Source: a virus
Reading direction: 5' to 3' (one strand)
IMG/VR virus record: IMGVR_UViG_3300032241_002170
Location: 1 to 29,835 of that record
DNA length: 29,835 nucleotides
The translations under genes were made by a program, and so were the position numbers. The notes below the pieces were generated by a model that was given only the letters and a program-made list of their open reading frames with translations, searched no databases and was not told where the DNA came from. Positions 5,833-29,300 of the stretch are shown in pieces (position 1 is the stretch's first letter; every line of letters begins with the position of its first letter).

Positions 5833-6276
5833 ATGTTTGGAACAAGTTCGCTTACACTCTCAGTACCAGAAACTGCAAAGTATCTGATGGAGATTCAGAA
5901 AAACAGCATTGGGTTGGATGAGTGGTTTAAAAGGTTTGATACTGCGTTTGAATCGCATACCAACTATCCACCATACAATCTAGTCAAAGAAAGTAATGTT
6001 GATTTCAGATTAGAAATTGCACTTGCTGGATATAAAAGAGAAGATATTGAAGTCACTACGGAATGGAATAAACTCTTTGTGGAAGCAAAGAAATCTGGAA
6101 ATTCAGATGATGAATACTTACATCAGGGATTAGCAAAAAGAGCATTTACTCGCACTTGGACTTTATCTGACGATGTAGTTGTTGGAGATGTTTCTTTTGA
6201 AGATGGATTACTCACAATTAAACTAAATAGAGTTATTCCAGAGCATCAGAAGAAAAAAGTTTATGAAATCGTATAA
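5833..6276 (+). CDS. hsp20: Small heat shock protein Hsp20 (alpha-crystallin domain)
   Basis: 147 residues. ATP-independent holdase chaperone. The alpha-crystallin domain is visible from YNLVKESNVDFRLEIALAGYKREDIEV (about residue 48) to the A-x-x-R-x-W region (KRAFTRTWTLSDDV) and DGLLTIKLNR. Cyanomyoviruses typically carry hsp20 between regA and gp43, which fits here. Likely role is protecting host or virion proteins during infection, or assembly. Own ribosome site and possible own promoter. The following tiny gene starts inside its last codons. Confidence 0.93.
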   Translation: MFGTSSLTLSVPETAKYLMEIQKNSIGLDEWFKRFDTAFESHTNYPPYNLVKESNVDFRLEIALAGYKREDIEVTTEWNKLFVEAKKSGNSDDEYLHQGLAKRAFTRTWTLSDDVVVGDVSFEDGLLTIKLNRVIPEHQKKKVYEIV

Positions 6277-6415
6277 AAGGTTTCTTGAGATTGCTAATAA
6301 AAAAGTAAAATTAAAAAAACCTAAAGTAAAAGAAGGTGAAGATAAACCAGAAGATTATGAATATATGGGGTCTGATGATCAAATGCTACATGAACCTGGT
6401 GATACTGGAATTTGA
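6263..6415 (+). CDS. 50-residue protein with capsid-targeting-like N-terminus
   Basis: Starts at an ATG within the last codons of hsp20 (other frame) and ends at TGA 6413-6415. Sequence begins MKSYKRFLEIANKK, then a Lys-rich stretch, then an acidic, Met-containing tail (EDYEYMGSDDQML). The MK(S/T)-x3-F(L/I) opening resembles the T4 internal-protein capsid-targeting peptide (MKTYQEFI) and recurs in four other genes here. Function unknown. Real-gene support: tight packing and the shared N-terminus with its neighbours. Confidence 0.6.
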   Translation: MKSYKRFLEIANKKVKLKKPKVKEGEDKPEDYEYMGSDDQMLHEPGDTGI

Positions 6416-6419
6416 TTAG

Positions 6420-6427
6420 AATAAATA
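6420..6427 (+). promoter_or_regulatory. Late promoter-like AATAAATA
   Basis: AATAAATA lies nine bases before ATG 6437. It matches the core ATAAATA but leaves almost no leader, so it is less convincing than those 21-33 bases upstream of starts. Confidence 0.4.
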
Positions 6428-6436
6428 ATTTAAAAA

Positions 6437-6583
6437 ATGAAAACCTTCAAGCAATTCATGAAAGAAATGGAAGGTGACTTTGGATCTCCAGCACCTAAAC
6501 CGGTAGAAAAGTGCTATGGTAAAAAAATTACCTATGCAGGATTGAAAAGAAAAGTTTGTGCTTTTCATAGAAAACGAGAGTAA
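6437..6583 (+). CDS. 48-residue basic protein with capsid-targeting-like N-terminus
   Basis: Starts MKTFKQFMKEMEGDFGSP, then a Pro/Lys linker and a basic C-terminus (GKKITYAGLKRKVCAFHRKRE) with two Cys. Ends TAA 6581-6583, two bases before the next ATG (TAATTATG). The opening resembles the T4 internal-protein signal, with a Glu at position 10 in the place where T4 gp21 protease would cut. A small basic packaged protein is plausible; function is unknown. Confidence 0.6.
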   Translation: MKTFKQFMKEMEGDFGSPAPKPVEKCYGKKITYAGLKRKVCAFHRKRE

Positions 6584-6585
6584 TT

Positions 6586-6705
6586 ATGAAAACTTTATCT
6601 CAATTTTTATATGAAGTTCGTGGATGCTCTACTTGCAAAAAAATGAGCTGCAAATGTGGTTCTCCCCCCGAAAATAATGATCCAACTCCAGGTCAGGCAG
6701 GTTGA
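6586..6705 (+). CDS. 39-residue Cys-rich protein with capsid-targeting-like N-terminus
   Basis: Starts MKTLSQFLYEVRG; LYE at positions 8-10 fits the T4 prohead protease consensus L/I-x-E. Next comes GCSTCKKMSCKCG, four Cys in a CxxC...CxC arrangement that could bind metal, then a Pro/Asn-rich tail ending at TGA 6703-6705. The same frame stays open after this TGA for 19 more codons to TGA 6763-6765, so the gene may be truncated by a point change (for example TGG to TGA) or read through. Function unknown. Confidence 0.55.
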   Translation: MKTLSQFLYEVRGCSTCKKMSCKCGSPPENNDPTPGQAG

Positions 6706-6763
6706 AAAAAAGAAAAGAAAATTATTGATAGAATCAATAATTCTGATGGTACTAATGTTAATT

Positions 6764-6771
6764 GATAAATA
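6764..6771 (+). promoter_or_regulatory. Late promoter-like GATAAATA
   Basis: GATAAATA overlaps the second TGA downstream of the Cys-rich gene. No gene starts within 100 bases and a terminator follows at 6802, so it may be only a remnant or drive a short RNA. Confidence 0.3.
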
Positions 6772-7219: not shown

Positions 7220-7448
7220 TACTACCGTAATTTCTGAAATTGATGAAGTTCCTTCAGAATTGGGAGAACCAGATTGTAAATTAATTAATCCATTTGAATT
7301 ATCTAAAGGAATTGCTGGAGATTATTATTTGAAGGTTTGGCCTGATGTCACAGAACAGAGAGAAATGATGATTCACTCAGATAGTATTTTAACTATCGTG
7401 GATCCAAAATCTGATTTAATTGATAAGTATCTTGAATTAACTAAGTAA
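7167..7448 (+). CDS. Small conserved protein (paralogue 2) upstream of gp43
   Basis: Up to 93 residues from ATG 7167, which lies 53 bases inside the previous gene. The first ten residues (Lys-rich) look artificial, and the family-like part begins near KCLILKIDTTVISEIDEV, so a non-ATG start closer to 7197 is possible. Core features are GEPDCKLINPFEL and a C-terminal SILTIVDPKSDLIDKYLE that mirrors paralogue 1. The stop overlaps the gp43A start (TAATG). Function unknown; position suggests a polymerase-linked or early role. Confidence 0.7.
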   Translation: MKKKSTNKIIKCLILKIDTTVISEIDEVPSELGEPDCKLINPFELSKGIAGDYYLKVWPDVTEQREMMIHSDSILTIVDPKSDLIDKYLELTK

Positions 7449-8725
7449 TGTCTTTACGCTTTTACACTAACGTTCAAATGGTCGGAGATCAATTTCTCGT
7501 TCGTGGTTATGAAAATGGGCAAAGTTTCATGACTCGTGAGAAATTTTCTCCGACTCTTTTTGTGCCTTCTAAAAAACAAACCAAATACAAGACTCTCACT
7601 GGAGAATGTGTAGAAGCAGTTCAACCAGGATCTGTGAGAGACTGTCGTGACTTTATTAAAAGGTATGACGGAGTAGAAGGATTTAAAATTTATGGAAATG
7701 ATCGTTACATCTATCAGTATATTTCTGATAATTATCCCGAAGATGAAATTAAATTTGATATTTCAAAAATCAAACTAGCTACGATTGACATTGAGGTTGC
7801 TTCCGAAAATGGATTTCCAGATGTAGAAAGTTCTGCAGAAGAAATTCTCTTGATTACTATTCAAGATTATAATACAAAAGGAATTCGCACTTGGGGGAAG
7901 GGTGAATTTAAGAATAATCAAAAAAACGTTCAGTATCGGGGATTTTCTAATGAATACGATCTTTTAAATGACTTTATTCATTGGTGGATGGATCATACTC
8001 CTGAAGTTATAACTGGATGGAATAGTGAATTGTATGACATTCCATATCTTGTTCGTCGTTTAGATAGAATTCTTGGAGAAAAGTTAATGAAACGTATGTC
8101 ACCCTGGGGATTGGTGACAGAAAATGAAGTATTCATTTCTGGGCGTAAACATATTTCTTATGATATTGGTGGAATTACTCAGCTTGATTATCTCAATCTT
8201 TATAAGAAGTTCACTTATACCAATCAAGAATCTTATCGCTTGGATCATATTGCTTTTGTTGAACTTGGTCAAAATAAGTTAGATCACTCTGAGTATGATA
8301 CCTTTAAAGACTTTTATACAAAAGGTTGGCAGAAGTTTGTAGAATACAATATTATTGACGTGGAACTTGTTGACCGATTGGAAGACAAGATGAAATTGAT
8401 TGAACTTGCAATTACGATGGCATATGATGCTAAAGCAAATTATGCTGATGTATTTTCTCAGGTTCGTATGTGGGATACAATTATTTACAACTATCTTAAA
8501 AAAAAGAATATTGTAATTCCCCCAAAAGAAAGAACCGATAAAGATTCTAAGTATGCTGGTGCATATGTGAAAGAGCCAATTCCTGGTGTATATGATTATG
8601 TTGTCAATTTCGATTTAAATTCACTTTATCCTCATCTTATTATGCAATACAGCATAAGCCCTGAAACATTAATTGAAAAACATCAACTTAATAATCGTAT
8701 TGCAGAATTGGAGAAAATGTTGTAG
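7448..8725 (+). CDS. gp43A: DNA polymerase gp43, N-terminal half (exonuclease and palm motif A)
   Basis: 425 residues of a family B polymerase. Contains the N-terminal domain and the 3'-5' proofreading exonuclease: Exo I TIDIEVA (Asp114, Glu116), Exo II TGWNSELYDIPYL, Exo III EYNIIDVELVD. Palm motif A FDLNSLYP (Asp389) is present. It stops 30 residues after motif A, following ISPETLIEKHQ and a charged helical segment (NNRIAELEKML). Motifs B and C are on the next polymerase gene. The break is caused by the inserted HNH gene. The two halves presumably assemble as a two-chain enzyme, as reported for split gp43 in T4-related Aeromonas phages. Confidence 0.93.
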   Translation: MSLRFYTNVQMVGDQFLVRGYENGQSFMTREKFSPTLFVPSKKQTKYKTLTGECVEAVQPGSVRDCRDFIKRYDGVEGFKIYGNDRYIYQYISDNYPEDEIKFDISKIKLATIDIEVASENGFPDVESSAEEILLITIQDYNTKGIRTWGKGEFKNNQKNVQYRGFSNEYDLLNDFIHWWMDHTPEVITGWNSELYDIPYLVRRLDRILGEKLMKRMSPWGLVTENEVFISGRKHISYDIGGITQLDYLNLYKKFTYTNQESYRLDHIAFVELGQNKLDHSEYDTFKDFYTKGWQKFVEYNIIDVELVDRLEDKMKLIELAITMAYDAKANYADVFSQVRMWDTIIYNYLKKKNIVIPPKERTDKDSKYAGAYVKEPIPGVYDYVVNFDLNSLYPHLIMQYSISPETLIEKHQLNNRIAELEKML

Positions 8726-8770
8726 AATATCCTCAACTTATAAATAATAATGTGTGGATACAATAAAACA
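8718..8770 (+). promoter_or_regulatory. Late promoter in a weak hairpin before the gp43-embedded HNH gene
   Basis: TATAAATA (8739-8746) lies 25 bases before ATG 8772. It is in the loop of an interrupted stem: TATCC (8728-8732) with GGATA (8756-8760), then, past a 3x3 internal loop, TA with TA and TGTT (8718-8721) with AACA (8767-8770). The 3' arm ends one base before the ATG. Weaker than the GIY-YIG hairpin but the same layout. Confidence 0.45.
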
Positions 8771-8771
8771 A

Positions 8772-9338
8772 ATGCAACCAAAATTTAACATAACACAAGA
8801 ACAACTACATCAACTTTATATTGTTGAAAACAAAAGTCGCAAAGAATGTGCTGAATTTTTTGGATGTTCCGACCCTCTTATTAAGCAGAAAATACGAAAG
8901 TATGGACTCCAAAAACCTAAACATTTGGAGAATAAAAATAAAGAGAGAAAGGAAACTCTTTATTGTGAAAATTGCGGTTCACCATTTATTGTAAGCAGAT
9001 TTAGAGCAACAAGTGAGAAATGGAAACTTCAATTTTGTTCTCATTCTTGTTCTTCTAAATTTAGATATTTGGGAGAAGACCATAAAAGAGCATCAATAAA
9101 TTATCACGCATCGTTAAGGAGAAGTAGAACTAAATATGCTTTTGATGAAACCGCAAATCAACAAAAAATAAATTCTTTTTATGAAGAAGCAGTTAAATTG
9201 ACAGAAGAAACTGGTATTCCCCACGAAGTGGACCACATCATTCCAATTTCCAAAGGAGGAAAACATCACGAAAATAATTTGCAAATACTAACAGCAACTG
9301 AAAATCGCAAAAAATATAATAAAATTATGGAGAATTGA
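8772..9338 (+). CDS. HNH homing endonuclease splitting gp43
   Basis: 188 residues from ATG 8772 (GTG 8754 is an in-frame alternative). The N-terminal helix-turn-helix (QEQLHQLYIVENKSRKECAE, then FFGCSDPLIKQKIRKYGL) probably reads DNA. A zinc-finger-like CENCGSPF...FCSHSC follows. The C-terminal HNH core is HEVDHIIPISKGGKHHENNLQIL. The gene fills almost all of the gap between the polymerase halves (28 bases to GTG or 46 to ATG before it, one base after), leaving no room for a group I intron core, so it interrupts gp43 as a free-standing gene. Its last codons (ATGGAGAATTGA) provide the GGAG ribosome site for gp43B. Confidence 0.9.
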   Translation: MQPKFNITQEQLHQLYIVENKSRKECAEFFGCSDPLIKQKIRKYGLQKPKHLENKNKERKETLYCENCGSPFIVSRFRATSEKWKLQFCSHSCSSKFRYLGEDHKRASINYHASLRRSRTKYAFDETANQQKINSFYEEAVKLTEETGIPHEVDHIIPISKGGKHHENNLQILTATENRKKYNKIMEN

Positions 9339-9339
9339 G

Positions 9340-10686
9340 ATGTGGAAAGATGTTCGTCAAATGTCTCCTCAAGAAATTAAGGAGGAACTTGAGGCACTTA
9401 AACAGGTAAGAGAACTTACTACAAAGGTGAGTGTAGACAAACTTCTAAATCAAGAGTTGGATTTAACACCACTAACAAAAGTAAATCTCACCATGACTGC
9501 GAATGGGGCACTCTACCGCAGGGTAAAGGGATTTCTTCCAGAACTGATGGAGAAAATCTATAAAGATCGCACCATCTATAAAAAGAAAATGATTGCGGCA
9601 AAACAGGAATATGAAAAGAAAAAAACGAAGGCACTGGAAAAGGAAATTGCAAGGTGTAACAACATTCAAATGGCAAGGAAGATTCAACTTAATAGTGCTT
9701 ATGGTGCTATTGGCAATCAGTACTTCCGTTATTTTAAACTAGCGAATGCTGAGGCAATTACTCTTTCAGGTCAAGTTTCAATTCGTTGGATTGAAGATAA
9801 AATTAACAAGTACTTAAACAAAATTCTTAAAACAAATGATGTTGACTATGTTATTGCTTCGGATACTGATTCTATCTATCTTAATATGGGTCCTTTGGTG
9901 GAGACTGTATACAAAGGAAGAGAAAAAACTACTGAAGGCGTTGTTTCGTTCCTTGATAAGGTCGCTAAGGTGGAACTTGAAAAACATATTGAAAGTTGTT
10001 ACCAAGAACTGGCGGATTATGTGAATGCATATGACCAGAAGATGCAGATGAAACGGGAGAATATTGCCGACCGTGGAATCTGGACTGCCAAAAAACGTTA
10101 TATTCTCAATGTTTGGGATAGTGAAGGTGTTCGTTATGAACAACCTAAACTTAAGATGATGGGTATTGAGGCAGTTAAATCTTCTACTCCTGCACCTTGT
10201 CGCCAGATGATTAAGGATGGTCTGAAACTGATGATGAGTGGAACTGAAGAAGAGGTGATTGAGTTTATTGATAAATGCCGTGCTGAATTCAAAAAACTTC
10301 CTCCAGAACAGATTGCTTTTCCAAGAACTGCTTCTGATGTTAAAAAGTATCAATCTTTTAATTCAATTTATGCTGAAAAAACTCCCATTCATATTCGTGG
10401 GGCACTTCTTTTTAATCACTATGTGAAGGAAAAAAATCTTACCAATAAGTATTCACTTATTAATAATGGAGAAAAAATAAAATATCTTTATTTAAAAACT
10501 CCAAATACAATTCGTGAAAATGTCATTTCCTTTATTTCGGATTTTCCAAAAGAACTCTCACTTGACAAATACATAGATTATGAATTACAATTTGAGAAAG
10601 CATTCTTAGATCCACTTAAATCAATTTTGAATTCAATTGGGTGGAAAATTGAGAAAACTATAAATCTTGATTCTTTTTTCAATTAA
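9340..10686 (+). CDS. gp43B: DNA polymerase gp43, C-terminal half (palm motifs B and C, thumb)
   Basis: 448 residues. Begins with a charged helical segment (MWKDVRQMSPQEIKEELEAL) and then typical gp43 sequence (VSVDKLLNQELDL, TANGALYRRVKGFLPELME). Motif B is KIQLNSAYGA (Lys114-Tyr121) and motif C is ASDTDSIYL (Asp175, Asp177). The palm aspartates 175/177 must combine with Asp389 of gp43A for catalysis. The C-terminus INLDSFFN resembles the clamp-binding tail of gp43. ATG 9340 follows the HNH stop by one base with GGAG seven bases upstream. Together the halves total 873 residues, as expected for a full gp43. Confidence 0.93.
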   Translation: MWKDVRQMSPQEIKEELEALKQVRELTTKVSVDKLLNQELDLTPLTKVNLTMTANGALYRRVKGFLPELMEKIYKDRTIYKKKMIAAKQEYEKKKTKALEKEIARCNNIQMARKIQLNSAYGAIGNQYFRYFKLANAEAITLSGQVSIRWIEDKINKYLNKILKTNDVDYVIASDTDSIYLNMGPLVETVYKGREKTTEGVVSFLDKVAKVELEKHIESCYQELADYVNAYDQKMQMKRENIADRGIWTAKKRYILNVWDSEGVRYEQPKLKMMGIEAVKSSTPAPCRQMIKDGLKLMMSGTEEEVIEFIDKCRAEFKKLPPEQIAFPRTASDVKKYQSFNSIYAEKTPIHIRGALLFNHYVKEKNLTNKYSLINNGEKIKYLYLKTPNTIRENVISFISDFPKELSLDKYIDYELQFEKAFLDPLKSILNSIGWKIEKTINLDSFFN

Positions 10687-15767: not shown

Positions 15768-16018
15768 TGAACAAAGAAATAAAAGAATTCATAGAAGAAC
15801 TGATTTCAAAATTTCCAGAAAAAGTAAGAAACTCAAAGGATATTTTTAAGGAGTTTATTACTTATGTTTATTCTACAATTGAAGATAAAATCAACTCAAC
15901 AAAACAGATTTCATCAAAGAATAAATATATAAAGATTAGGAAAAGTGTTTTACGATACTTTGTTGCAAACGAAAAAGCAATAACGTCTGAAATTCTTAAA
16001 AAGAAGACTATACAATAA
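15767..16018 (+). CDS. Small Lys/Glu-rich helical protein
   Basis: 83 residues, starting on the previous stop (TAATG) and ending on the next start (TAATG). Mostly helical and highly charged: MNKEIKEFIEELISKFPEKV, then KDIFKEFITYVYSTIEDKIN and a basic end (KYIKIRKSVLRYF). Not recognised. The shared-base junctions on both sides support a real gene in the late operon. Confidence 0.6.
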   Translation: MNKEIKEFIEELISKFPEKVRNSKDIFKEFITYVYSTIEDKINSTKQISSKNKYIKIRKSVLRYFVANEKAITSEILKKKTIQ

Positions 16019-16626
16019 TGAAATCATTTTCTCAATTTTTAGAAGCAACATTTTCCAGAGCGGTTCAACAAGCAACCCGAATGGGATTGAAGTCGGATGG
16101 TCATGGTGGATATCATGATAATACTGGAGAATTTATTGCTAAAGATGTTCAGGGAAGATTAGTTTTTTATAATAAAAGACAAAGACCTGGGAAGGATCCT
16201 GCACAAACACCAAAAGAAAAACTTTTATCAGCACCAACACTAATAAGTGCTCCTCCAATTAATGAAAGTGAATTGAGGGAAAAATATATTGCTGGAGAAA
16301 TATTTAACGAAGGTGATATTGTTGAAAGTATAGTAAATGGAATGATTGGTAAAATCATTCGCAGAGGTGCAAATCATTTGATTTGTGTTACTGAAGATGA
16401 AGAGATGTTCAAGTCTTGGATTAAGGATGTTAGGGAATATACTGAAGTCAGAATGGATCGTATGATGAGAGAACCTGGAAAACCAAATACATTAGAAGGA
16501 ACCAAAGGATATTTTAAATACGTGGCACAACAAACTCCAGGAGCACTTGGAACTGGAAAAGAAAATTTACAACAAGGTGGAAAAGCATATGGTATTGATT
16601 TCATAAATAAATATAGAAAAAAGTAA
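16018..16626 (+). CDS. Virion-associated candidate with capsid-targeting-like N-terminus and SH3-like segment
   Basis: 202 residues. Begins MKSFSQFLEATFSRAV, similar to the T4 internal-protein targeting peptide. After a basic, disordered linker comes a segment near residues 96-130, FNEGDIVESIVNGMIGKIIRRGANHLICVTEDEE, that looks like a small SH3/KOW-type barrel found in several cyanophage structural proteins. The C-terminus is GGKAYGIDFINKYRKK. It is followed by another virion-like gene whose late promoter overlaps the end of this one. Role in or on the head is inference. Confidence 0.65.
   Translation: MKSFSQFLEATFSRAVQQATRMGLKSDGHGGYHDNTGEFIAKDVQGRLVFYNKRQRPGKDPAQTPKEKLLSAPTLISAPPINESELREKYIAGEIFNEGDIVESIVNGMIGKIIRRGANHLICVTEDEEMFKSWIKDVREYTEVRMDRMMREPGKPNTLEGTKGYFKYVAQQTPGALGTGKENLQQGGKAYGIDFINKYRKK
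16606..16613 (+). promoter_or_regulatory. Late promoter AATAAATA
   Basis: AATAAATA (with an overlapping CATAAATA at 16602-16609) lies inside the end of the preceding gene and 27 bases before ATG 16641. Confidence 0.55.
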
Positions 16627-16640
16627 GTGGTAAAATTTAA

Positions 16641-18098
16641 ATGAGCACTCGTATTTTTGAAGATCTTCCTTCAAGAAAGGATATTCCCGTCGCATCTCCA
16701 AGACCTGAAAAAGGTAGGGAAGATAAAAAAGATAGTGGTGCCGAGGGTGGAGAAAAAAGAGTTCGCCAAGCAGTTTATGATATTCGCTATAGGGCAAGGA
16801 GAGAAGAGATTCCTGTAATGCAGGCTTTTTCGCAATATATGCAAAATACTTCCATGAGTGGTGCCGAAAGAGCAGCAGTAAAAGCAAAACTCAGCGAAGA
16901 GTATGTAATTAATGAAATGGCTGTTGATACTGTCGCAACTGCGATGTTTAAAGTTTTTGTTGAAGGTATTGAAGAAGAAGTAGAAGAACTTGAGTATCTT
17001 CAACAACTTGCCGAGATGCAAGAAAGAAAATATAAAGTAAGAGTTACTGATAAGAATTCTGGTAAATCTTATGTAAGATATGCGACTCGTGAAAAAATTA
17101 ATGAATTGAGAGCAAATCCAAATATTGAGTCAGTAGAAATGACTGAATATGGTGAGCCTTATGAAGGTGAGAAAAAGAAAGGTGAACAAACCGCAAGAGC
17201 AAAGGCTGGTAAAGGATTAGATCCAGTTGGTAAAGAAGATTCTGATGTAAATAACGATGGCAAAGTGGATAAAACCGATAAGTATCTTCTTCATCGTAGA
17301 GAAGTTCGTGGTAAAGCAATTGCCTCACATCATGAAGCATATGATATTTTTGAAAAAACTGCCCCAACAGTAGATCAAAATGATACTGAAATTGTATCAA
17401 ATGAAGAAAAGGGTGCTAATAATTATGCCAAAAATAGAAAAGGAAAAGCAGCGGTTACTTTATATCCAACTATTCAACCAGCAGGTGGAATGCAGAATGA
17501 GGAAGTTATTTCTGAAAAATCAGTAAGCACTGCTCAACAGAAATTTATGGGTATGGTTCATGCTCTTAAAAAAGGTAAAATGAAAAATGCTTCACCAGAA
17601 GTCAAAAAAGCGGCAGGATCTATGAGTGATACTGAAGCAACTAAATTTGCTTCTACAAAGCACAAAGGACTTCCAGCACATGTTGCTAAAGAAGAAGTTC
17701 AACTTGACGAAATGGGAATGCCCATCATTGTAATGAAAAAGAATTCTAAAGAAGGATCCTTTGATAGAATGGATACTTATGAGACTGATGATGTGAAAAA
17801 AATCAATAAGGATGATCCAAGAGGGAAATTTGGTAAGGATCAAAAAGTAAAAAATACCCTACATTCTATGGGTGCTAAAAAGGTAATGGTTGTTGGTGAA
17901 TCATCTGCTGATGATGCTATGAATGTAGTTAAAAAAAATATGGTAAAACAGTATGGTGCTAAAGCAATTGTAGGTTCTGCTGCAAATAAAAGAGCACAAG
18001 CAGAAAAAGCATCAGAACCAAAACCAAAAAAACCAAAAAGAAAACTTCCAGGATATAGTATTCCTGGAGCACCTCCCGAAAAATCATACCACGATTGA
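16641..18098 (+). CDS. Multi-module virion-like protein with EF-hand-like loop and DUF3008 segment
   Basis: 485 residues, low complexity and modular. An acidic helical region ([19 protein letters not shown]) lies near residues 90-110. A following module, [20 protein letters not shown], is then followed by [20 protein letters not shown], which contains a D-x-N-x-D-G-K-V-D loop like an EF-hand or dockerin calcium site. Next is [19 protein letters not shown] with [20 protein letters not shown], matching the DUF3008 pattern. The tail is basic, Pro-rich. Such mosaic proteins occur in cyanophage and pelagiphage virions. Repeated acidic L/I-x-E sites could be cut by the prohead protease. Function unknown. 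Confidence 0.75.
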
Positions 18099-18413: not shown

Positions 18414-19244
18414 ATGGCTCTCTGGGGGATTTCAACAGCGGCAGAAACTGCAGCAAACCAGTATGCTTTGCCTAAGTATGTTCACCAAGTAGCAAGATCA
18501 AATAGCAGACACGATGTTTTTGCTGATGCTCGTGGGTGGGTTCAAAGACATTACAAGACACAAGAACATTCAGGGATTTCTACTCGTTTTTGGGATGAAG
18601 TTTTAGTTCCTATTGCCCAACCTGGTCTTGCTGGAACTGGTGGTTATAGTGTTTCTCTCGGAAGTACCTTGACTGGTTTGGGACTTGCTACTCCCGTTGC
18701 AGTATTTTTTGAAGATCCGAATAAATCATCAGTTATTTCAGTAGGCGCTGGTGGAACAACTGGAATTGGAACTGGTAAAACCGGATACGTTCATTTAGTA
18801 TTTAATGAAGTTGTATTTGCTGGTGCTGGTGCAACGATTTCAATTAATCGTTCTACAGGAACACCAATTGTTGCAACAGCAGCTTCTGTAACTCCAGGAG
18901 TAACTGTTGCTAGTTGGACTTATCAATATCCTAATGCTGGTGTGGGAACTGTTACTAATGCTGGTGGACCTCAATTAGTTACAAATTATAATGGACAAAT
19001 TACCAATAGAGTTGCATTTGCCTTTACTGTACCATCTACTGGAATTGGAACGGTATTAACAATTGATACAACTAAGGGATTTATTGGTGTAATTACTGAT
19101 ATGTACTTTGGTTCTGGTGTTACAAGTTCATTTACTTCTGATATGATTCGTAATGTTGGTGGAGCAGGAACTTATCTTTCAGTTCAAAAAGATGGTGTGA
19201 CTGCTGTTGGACTTGGAACAACTACTTTAACTATTACTGCATGA
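18414..19244 (+). CDS. Putative virion structural protein
   Basis: 276 residues. N-terminus MALWGISTAAETAANQYALP, followed by ADARGWVQRHYKTQEHSG and STRFWDEVLVPI, is a conserved opening of cyanophage virion proteins. The rest is Gly/Thr/Val-rich and beta (many GTG, TGIGTG and VTAVGLGTTTLTI-type strands), as in tail-fibre or decoration proteins. It has an isolated strong late promoter. No transmembrane segment. Exact virion location is unknown. Confidence 0.75.
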   Translation: MALWGISTAAETAANQYALPKYVHQVARSNSRHDVFADARGWVQRHYKTQEHSGISTRFWDEVLVPIAQPGLAGTGGYSVSLGSTLTGLGLATPVAVFFEDPNKSSVISVGAGGTTGIGTGKTGYVHLVFNEVVFAGAGATISINRSTGTPIVATAASVTPGVTVASWTYQYPNAGVGTVTNAGGPQLVTNYNGQITNRVAFAFTVPSTGIGTVLTIDTTKGFIGVITDMYFGSGVTSSFTSDMIRNVGGAGTYLSVQKDGVTAVGLGTTTLTITA

Positions 19245-19245
19245 T

Positions 19246-19617
19246 ATGAGATTTGATGAATTGAACGAAAATAACTACATGTTATTTGCTATAAAATTCT
19301 ACGATAATCCTCAAGCACTTACGAAAGAAGATTTTGAGGATGATTTAAAAAGAATTAAATATATCAAAAGATTATTGAAAAGATATAAGAATACTGGAGT
19401 TCTTAAAACTCATTTAGTATTAAATCATCTTACTATTCTTTTTAATGTCTTTAATGATGCTGCAGTTCCTTTGTTATTTTATAATTTAGATAGAGATCTT
19501 TGGCCGGTGATTAAAAGTTTTTTGGTATTTTTGAATAGACTTCCAGAATACCCAAAAACCGAAATTAATAGTATTGATCAAGATGATAATTGTCTTTCTA
19601 TGTTACAACTAATCTAA
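19246..19617 (+). CDS. Conserved cyanophage protein of unknown function (123 residues)
   Basis: MRFDELNENNYMLFAIKFYDNP, then a basic helix DDLKRIKYIKRLLKRYKNTG and the conserved LKTHLVLNHLTILFNVFNDAAVPLLFY, ending with a hydrophobic helix FLVFLNRLP. This arrangement recurs next to structural genes in T4-like cyanophages. It is one base apart from the preceding stop and overlaps the next ATG. Function unknown; possibly an assembly factor since it sits among virion genes. Confidence 0.75.
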   Translation: MRFDELNENNYMLFAIKFYDNPQALTKEDFEDDLKRIKYIKRLLKRYKNTGVLKTHLVLNHLTILFNVFNDAAVPLLFYNLDRDLWPVIKSFLVFLNRLPEYPKTEINSIDQDDNCLSMLQLI

Positions 19618-19850
19618 TGGATATCAATAAAATCATTTCAATTATTCGTAACCTTAAAGAAGATGGTGGAGCTGCTGGTGGTGGAATGGTTGCGAATGCT
19701 CCTGGAACTCAAGGAGGATTTGGTGCATCTTCTGATCCAAAAGGACCCACTGCTGGATTTGATCCAGTAATGGGTGGAATACAAAGAAGAAAATATGCAA
19801 GAGGTGGAAGAGGATCCCGTATAAATTGGTTACCCAAAAAATCTAAATAG
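19617..19850 (+). CDS. Gly-rich small protein with basic tail (77 residues)
   Basis: Starts at ATG 19617 on the previous stop. MDINKIISIIRNLKEDGG is a short helix, then Gly/Ala-rich linker AAGGGMVANAPGTQGGFGAS, the conserved DPKGPTAGFDPVM, and an Arg-rich tail (RRKYARGGRGSR, ending NWLPKKSK). The DPKGPTAG-DPVM signature occurs in small proteins of marine T4-like phages. Probably a minor virion or assembly protein; unproven. Confidence 0.7.
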   Translation: MDINKIISIIRNLKEDGGAAGGGMVANAPGTQGGFGASSDPKGPTAGFDPVMGGIQRRKYARGGRGSRINWLPKKSK

Positions 19851-28844: not shown

Positions 28845-29300
28845 ATGAAATCGTTTAAAAACTTTTTAAAAAATTCTTGTAATTTAAAAGAAAGCAAAGA
28901 ATCTTCAGATAAAAAGATTCATAATGATGCTTTTGTATATCTTGATCCCAAACCTCCAGAAAATAAGTTTGCACAATGTTCAACTTGTTCCTTATTTTTA
29001 CCAGGAAAACAAAGGTGTGCAATTTTCAGTGAAGATTTTAAAGTTGTAGCAAATGCTGCATGTAGTTTGTATGTTCATGGAAAACCGCATGATGATCAAA
29101 AAATTATCAATTCAGTTTCTCCAGAAGAAGCAGGATATGTAGTTGGTCAAGTTCGTTGTGAAAATTGTGGTTGGTATGAAACCGATCATAAAGAATGTGG
29201 ATTATATGAAATGTTAAATAAAAAACTTCCTGATGTTTTTGATTTGGATGAATATGTAGATCCCAAAGGTTGCTGTAATGCTTGGGGTAAAAAAGAATAA
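28845..29300 (+). CDS. Cys-rich protein with two HiPIP-like Cys4 modules
   Basis: 151 residues. Starts MKSFKNFLKNSCNL, a capsid-targeting-like opening. Module 1: CSTCSLFLPGKQRCAIF with KVVANAACSLYV (C-x2-C...C...C-S-x-Y). Module 2: CENCGWYETDHKECGLYEML and, after an insert, VDPKGCCNAWGKK. The order CxxC, C-x-(L/I)-(F/Y), then (G)C-x-x-(W/Y) is that of high-potential iron-sulfur proteins, suggesting two [4Fe-4S] or zinc sites. No export signal. Fe-S binding is inference, but the two modules support each other. It ends base to base with a minus-strand gene. Confidence 0.7.
   Translation: MKSFKNFLKNSCNLKESKESSDKKIHNDAFVYLDPKPPENKFAQCSTCSLFLPGKQRCAIFSEDFKVVANAACSLYVHGKPHDDQKIINSVSPEEAGYVVGQVRCENCGWYETDHKECGLYEMLNKKLPDVFDLDEYVDPKGCCNAWGKKE

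Follow-up and report, generated by a model that had tools for sequence, protein, structure and literature searches.

The DNA analysed here (hereafter the window) is an IMG/VR record of 29,835 bases from a T4-like cyanophage. Its genes run in the order clamp (gp45), clamp loader, regA, hsp20, gp43, uvsX, gp41, primase and nrdA/nrdB, and its closest isolate, Synechococcus phage S-SRM01, came from a Singapore reservoir. The DNA polymerase gene gp43 (7448-10686) is split in two (7448-8725 and 9340-10686), and an HNH endonuclease-like gene (8754-9338) separates the parts; gp43 is split in phage S-CREM2 too and is one long gene in S-SRM01.

Five open reading frames (ORFs) in the window share a start of about ten residues (the leader) and open with MK[S/T]-[F/Y/L]-x-x-F-[L/M], all of them as listed in a first-pass annotation of the sequence (Table 1). 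Three lie in tandem (6263-6705) next to hsp20: P1 starts 14 nt upstream of the end of the hsp20 ORF, and P2 and P3 follow directly. The same annotation had described the trio as one basic, one Cys-rich and one acidic-tailed protein. This detail needs correcting: P1 combines a basic middle with an acidic tail (pI 6.6), P2 is basic (pI 9.9) and carries two Cys, and P3 has four Cys.

Table 1. Leader-bearing ORFs and the promoter-like motif in the window; a slash in a sequence follows the Glu of the leader.
Feature	Position	Strand	Length	Description
P1	6263..6415	+	50 aa	Leader MKSYKRFLEI with Y4 and F7; same gene in related loci L020 and L066
ATAAATA	6421..6427	+		Resembles a T4-type late promoter; lies 16 nt before the P2 start codon, as it does in L020 and L066
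P2	6437..6583	+	48 aa	Leader MKTFKQFMKE/MEGDFG; body GDFG..CYG..Y..VCA; homologue in S-SRM01
P3	6586..6705	+	39 aa	Leader MKTLSQFLYE/VRG; body CxxC...CxC
16018 gene	16018..16626	+	202 aa	Leader MKSFSQFLEAT; C-terminal domain of the cyanophage cytidylyltransferase/NMNAT-like virion protein
28845 gene	28845..29300	+	151 aa	Leader MKSFKNFLKN; L-x-E at 14-16; ten Cys

Between the window and loci L020 and L066, pN/pS was 0.30-0.39 for P1, 0.05-0.09 for P2 and 0.10-0.11 for P3, so that P1-P3 all have the appearance of translated genes kept by purifying selection. P3 is cut down in the window, where a TGA stands in place of the TGG codon (Trp40) of L020 and L066 and about 20 C-terminal residues are lost; past the TGA, the frame (6586-6765) still holds 20 conserved residues matching both loci. 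Searches of Pfam and PHROGs gave no match for P1, P2 or P3, tblastn against isolated phages gave none for P1 and P3, and the 28845 protein had no relative in the phages or viral contigs searched. AlphaFold modelled the P2 family with low confidence (mean pLDDT 63, pTM 0.22), as a weak hairpin plus a helix spanning the leader.

The cassette was compared across 80 loci collected via hsp20. In most of them the hsp20 stop codon is overlapped by the start of a tiny ORF, and these ORFs open with MKS[FY][QKR][EKDR]F[MVIL], followed by one of three unrelated body types: GDFG..CYG..VCA (the P2 type), YPMAQAHTVIDPKTHKKQRVPKG or the P1 type. A P1-type gene comes first and a P2-type gene second in the window; in relatives, P2-family genes mostly have their start at the stop codon of hsp20.

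The ATAAATA motif before P2 sits within the block of replication genes. The window holds 19 copies on the + (coding) strand and none on the − strand, and over all loci the coding strand carried 660 copies versus 37 on the other strand. Leader ORFs had the motif close upstream more often than other ORFs did (odds ratio 2.8, from related contigs that are not independent). By analogy with T4, it may act as a promoter in the window phage. Copies at 1274, 8740 and 24870 directly precede endonuclease-like genes (1290, 8754 and 24901).

Residue by residue, the leader agrees with the capsid-targeting sequence of T4 (MKTYQEFIAE/A). Mutants of T4 IPIII assigned targeting to residues 4 and 7 and processing to residues 8 and 10, and cleavage by the prohead protease gp21 follows L/I-x-E (PMC9026906). 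Phe7 is present in five of five window leaders, and residue 4 is Y, F, L, F and F in P1, P2, P3, 16018 and 28845, so that P3, with Leu, deviates from the rule of an aromatic residue 4. The first-pass annotation, which had likened the proteins to T4 internal proteins cut by gp21 after I/L-x-E, is not borne out in this form on the last point: the exact site at residue 10 occurs in P3, whereas the other four ORFs lack it there. P2 has M-x-E at residue 10 (L/I-x-E in 19 of 23 relatives), 28845 has L-x-E only at residue 16, and P1 and 16018 have no L/I-x-E near the leader. Judging from these residues, it is plausible that P2 and P3 are cut by gp21, and a cut in 28845 would fall at residue 16. P1 and 16018 are predicted to be targeted without being cut, as the T4 mutant data imply that proteins lacking the cut site could still be targeted (PMC9026906).

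Across related phages, residues 4 and 7 of the leader were kept in the P2 and 16018 families. In the P2 family, F7 and an aromatic residue 4 each occurred in 23/23 members, and in an alignment of 21 sequences M1, K2, F7, E10, GDFG, CYG, Y and C were invariant, with a Glu preceding GDFG in all. Among 55 distinct N-termini of the 16018 family, F4 and F7 were present in 55, L/I8 in 53 and E10 in 53, and residue 11 was Ala, Thr or Ser (Tyr once). The two exceptions at E10 are the window protein and its nearest relative, on locus L129, in which the leader is one residue shorter (FLEAT versus FIxEAT in the relatives). Codons varied synonymously at F4, F7, K2 and E10, which indicates conservation of the protein rather than of the RNA.

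As a positive control, the leader motif recovered T4 IPII and IPIII. The T7-like cyanophages P-SSP7 and Syn5, used as negative controls, had neither an MK-type leader nor gp21. Phage Syn9 contained one credible leader gene, of 382 aa and resembling the cytidylyltransferase family; its other matches look like chance ORFs and were rejected. Within the 30-kb window itself gp21, gp22 and gp23 were not found. A gp21-type prohead protease and gp22/gp23 were present in S-SRM01 and in all the large T4-like relatives tested, and gp21 was found in every T4-like record >125 kb tested. Near the N-terminus of the major capsid proteins stand GLLTE/AP (S-CREM2) and GILTE/AA (S-SZBM1), which resemble the cut site of T4 gp23.

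The 16018 protein shares its leader and C-terminal part with the cyanophage cytidylyltransferase/NMNAT-like protein (T4-GC190, phrog_395) but lacks the catalytic middle. Proteins on loci L129 and L130 match it over the same 202 residues, so this loss is common to the lineage. The cytidylyltransferase is reported from virions of S-SM1 (PMC3037559), S-SZBM1 (PMC9146016) and S-CREM2 (PMC10665884), and from those of S-SCSM1 (PMC9602691) as an NMNAT-like protein.

The leader stands on proteins that are otherwise unrelated, and its recurrence cannot be put down to chance. In 1.56 Mb of related loci it occurred 166 times, versus once for a motif of scrambled order; a few of the 166 matches are internal Met codons of other genes, e.g. 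gp44, and counts over related contigs are not independent. The internal gp44 match and a putative family, MKTFIIFLNRLPEYP, likewise an internal Met of another gene, were dropped. In S-SZBM1, the motif followed 3 of 218 start Mets and 0 of 865 internal Mets. A DNA pattern combining the leader, a Shine-Dalgarno site and E/A at residues 10-11 matched 81 stretches in the whole viral_contigs collection (IMG/VR), versus 0 for a codon-permuted control. The 61 distinct proteins found in this way fall into 34 body families without detectable mutual similarity, and their resemblance stops abruptly past the leader. Pfam matches above the cut-off were a SAM lyase on L263 (4e-14) and a GNAT acetyltransferase on L245 (5e-9); a cytidylyltransferase on L258 fell just below it, and L219 gave a weak ADP-ribosyltransferase match (E 0.024). 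T4-type core genes were present on at least 46 of 80 leader loci, within the few kilobases examined per locus.

The leader was also associated with proteins detected in virions of relatives. The published S-CREM2 virion proteome (PMC10665884) was mapped onto its 219 annotated genes, and leaders with a correctly spaced E were found in 5 of 52 virion-detected versus 0 of 167 undetected proteins (p = 6.5e-4, a post hoc value, since the motif was loosened after the list had been viewed, and thus not a clean test). These are a SAM hydrolase (MKDFDSFLEE), gp13 (MKDLHSFLTE), an APH-like kinase (MKRFDAFLTE), gp136 (MQTFSMFFSE) and the cytidylyltransferase (MKNFSSFLTE). A narrower motif fixed beforehand gave one S-CREM2 match, which was detected in the virion. 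The virion-detected Cas9-like nuclease of S-CREM2 carries RFASFMAE/AA at residues 18-25. In the 30-protein proteome of S-SZBM1 (PMC9146016), one of three leader proteins was detected (p = 0.36), namely the cytidylyltransferase; gp191 (MKSFKSFLSE) and gp57, probably a chance match, were not. With five of five in S-CREM2 and one of three in S-SZBM1, support for the link between leader and virion is uneven, and the authors of the S-CREM2 (PMC10665884) and S-SCSM1 (PMC9602691) studies note that co-purified contaminants cannot be excluded in their mass spectrometry data.

We consider it likely, at a probability of roughly 0.78, that the common start is a capsid-targeting sequence of the T4 internal-protein type and that P1-P3 are packaged, co-injected cargo. 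The leader match, the unrelated bodies, the presence of gp21 in related phages and the S-CREM2 virion proteins support the first-pass reading in part. From the T4 system we infer the following course. The leader proteins would be made late in infection and bind the gp22 scaffold core of the prohead via residues 4 (aromatic) and 7 (Phe), closure of the shell would trap them, and gp21 would remove the leader where L/I(M)-x-E follows. The mature bodies would remain beside the packaged DNA and be delivered to the host together with it. P1-P3 would then be small accessory cargo, a variable cassette after hsp20, probably acting early on host defence or takeover. T4 Ip1-3 block type IV restriction enzymes (PMC12373910), and this precedent, together with the SAM lyase in relatives, makes anti-defence a first guess for the role of the bodies.

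The leader proteins of the window are best filed among the T4 internal proteins, here in cyanophages. Like IPI, IPII and IPIII of Tequatrovirus, they combine a leader broadly of the form MK-T-aromatic-x-x-F-I/L-x-E with unrelated small bodies encoded by accessory genes, an arrangement described for T-even phages (Rao & Black 2010 and Silas 2025, the latter citing Repoila 1994), and the relatives of the window phage have a T4-type head with gp21 and gp22. They differ in the cyanobacterial hosts, in the lack of visible body similarity to the internal proteins, in a cut site that is shifted or missing in three of the five window proteins, and in that the cargo of relatives includes enzymes. The SAM hydrolase and the APH-like kinase of S-CREM2 virions share the leader; like the Cas9-like nuclease, they are large enzymes, unlike the tiny window proteins. 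The available part of the S-CREM2 report (PMC10665884) makes no mention of a packaging signal for these virion enzymes.

The leader might instead target the prohead core, with the tiny proteins helping in morphogenesis or scaffolding and being largely degraded rather than injected. Their small size fits such a role; in T4, gp22 is fragmented by cleavage along with other proteins of the core, and head assembly is affected in IPIII mutants as well (PMC9026906). An essential scaffold, however, would not be expected to behave like these bodies, which are accessory and replace one another at one site from relative to relative, and large enzymes that carry this leader persist sufficiently for detection in S-CREM2 virions (PMC10665884); we regard this explanation as unlikely.

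Two further explanations are less likely still. A translation or mRNA feature, whether an A-rich start that promotes initiation or coupling to hsp20, would suit the A/T-richness of the leader and the several starts that overlap the hsp20 stop codon and lack a clear Shine-Dalgarno site. We hold this to be very improbable, since F4, F7, K2 and E10 are kept at the protein level despite codon variation, residue order matters (81 versus 0), and leader ORFs occur both with and without Shine-Dalgarno sites. The tandem of three could also reflect diverged paralogues of one family, with the leader as the last remaining resemblance. The 34 mutually dissimilar body families, which include enzymes as unrelated as SAM lyase, GNAT acetyltransferase and cytidylyltransferase, and the abrupt end of conservation after the leader leave shared ancestry with scarcely any credibility.

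The leader may belong to a general system of leader-addressed cargo in T4-like cyanophages and their environmental relatives, a broader proposal to which we give somewhat better than even credence. A sequence of about ten residues would have been grafted onto dozens of unrelated proteins, from tiny peptides exchanged at fixed sites (after hsp20) to enzymes (SAM lyase, kinase, NMNAT-like, GNAT, perhaps ADP-ribosyltransferase and Cas9-like nuclease), and injected effectors could be read from sequence alone. We found no report of leader-addressed proteins in cyanophages in the openly accessible main texts searched, in which 'capsid targeting sequence' and 'cyanophage' co-occurred only in a T4 review with one cyanophage mention. 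Few of the proteins that cyanophages inject with their DNA are known, and enzymes found in cyanophage virions have so far been regarded as potential contaminants. If virion cargo could be predicted from such a leader, the question would become readable from sequence and directly testable, and the leader would nominate dozens of candidate early-acting effectors as well as unrecognised ones in T4, such as gp61.1.

T4 gp61.1 (L209:467-631, corresponding to T4 18966-19130) opens with MKTFKEFIKE behind a good Shine-Dalgarno site and is annotated only as hypothetical; by its leader it is a candidate for a further T4 internal protein. A 76-aa T4 ORF overlapping the end of uvsW is another candidate. 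Two other genes of the window have a link to virion proteins of S-CREM2 (PMC10665884). A small protein at 19590-19850 is similar to the S-CREM2 virion protein gp160 and contains TAGFDPVMGG, a stretch resembling the N-arm of mature gp23, the major capsid protein (phrog_696). A 485-aa protein at 16641-18098, with a dockerin-like stretch of 20 residues and DUF3008, belongs to a gene block that in S-CREM2 codes for virion proteins.
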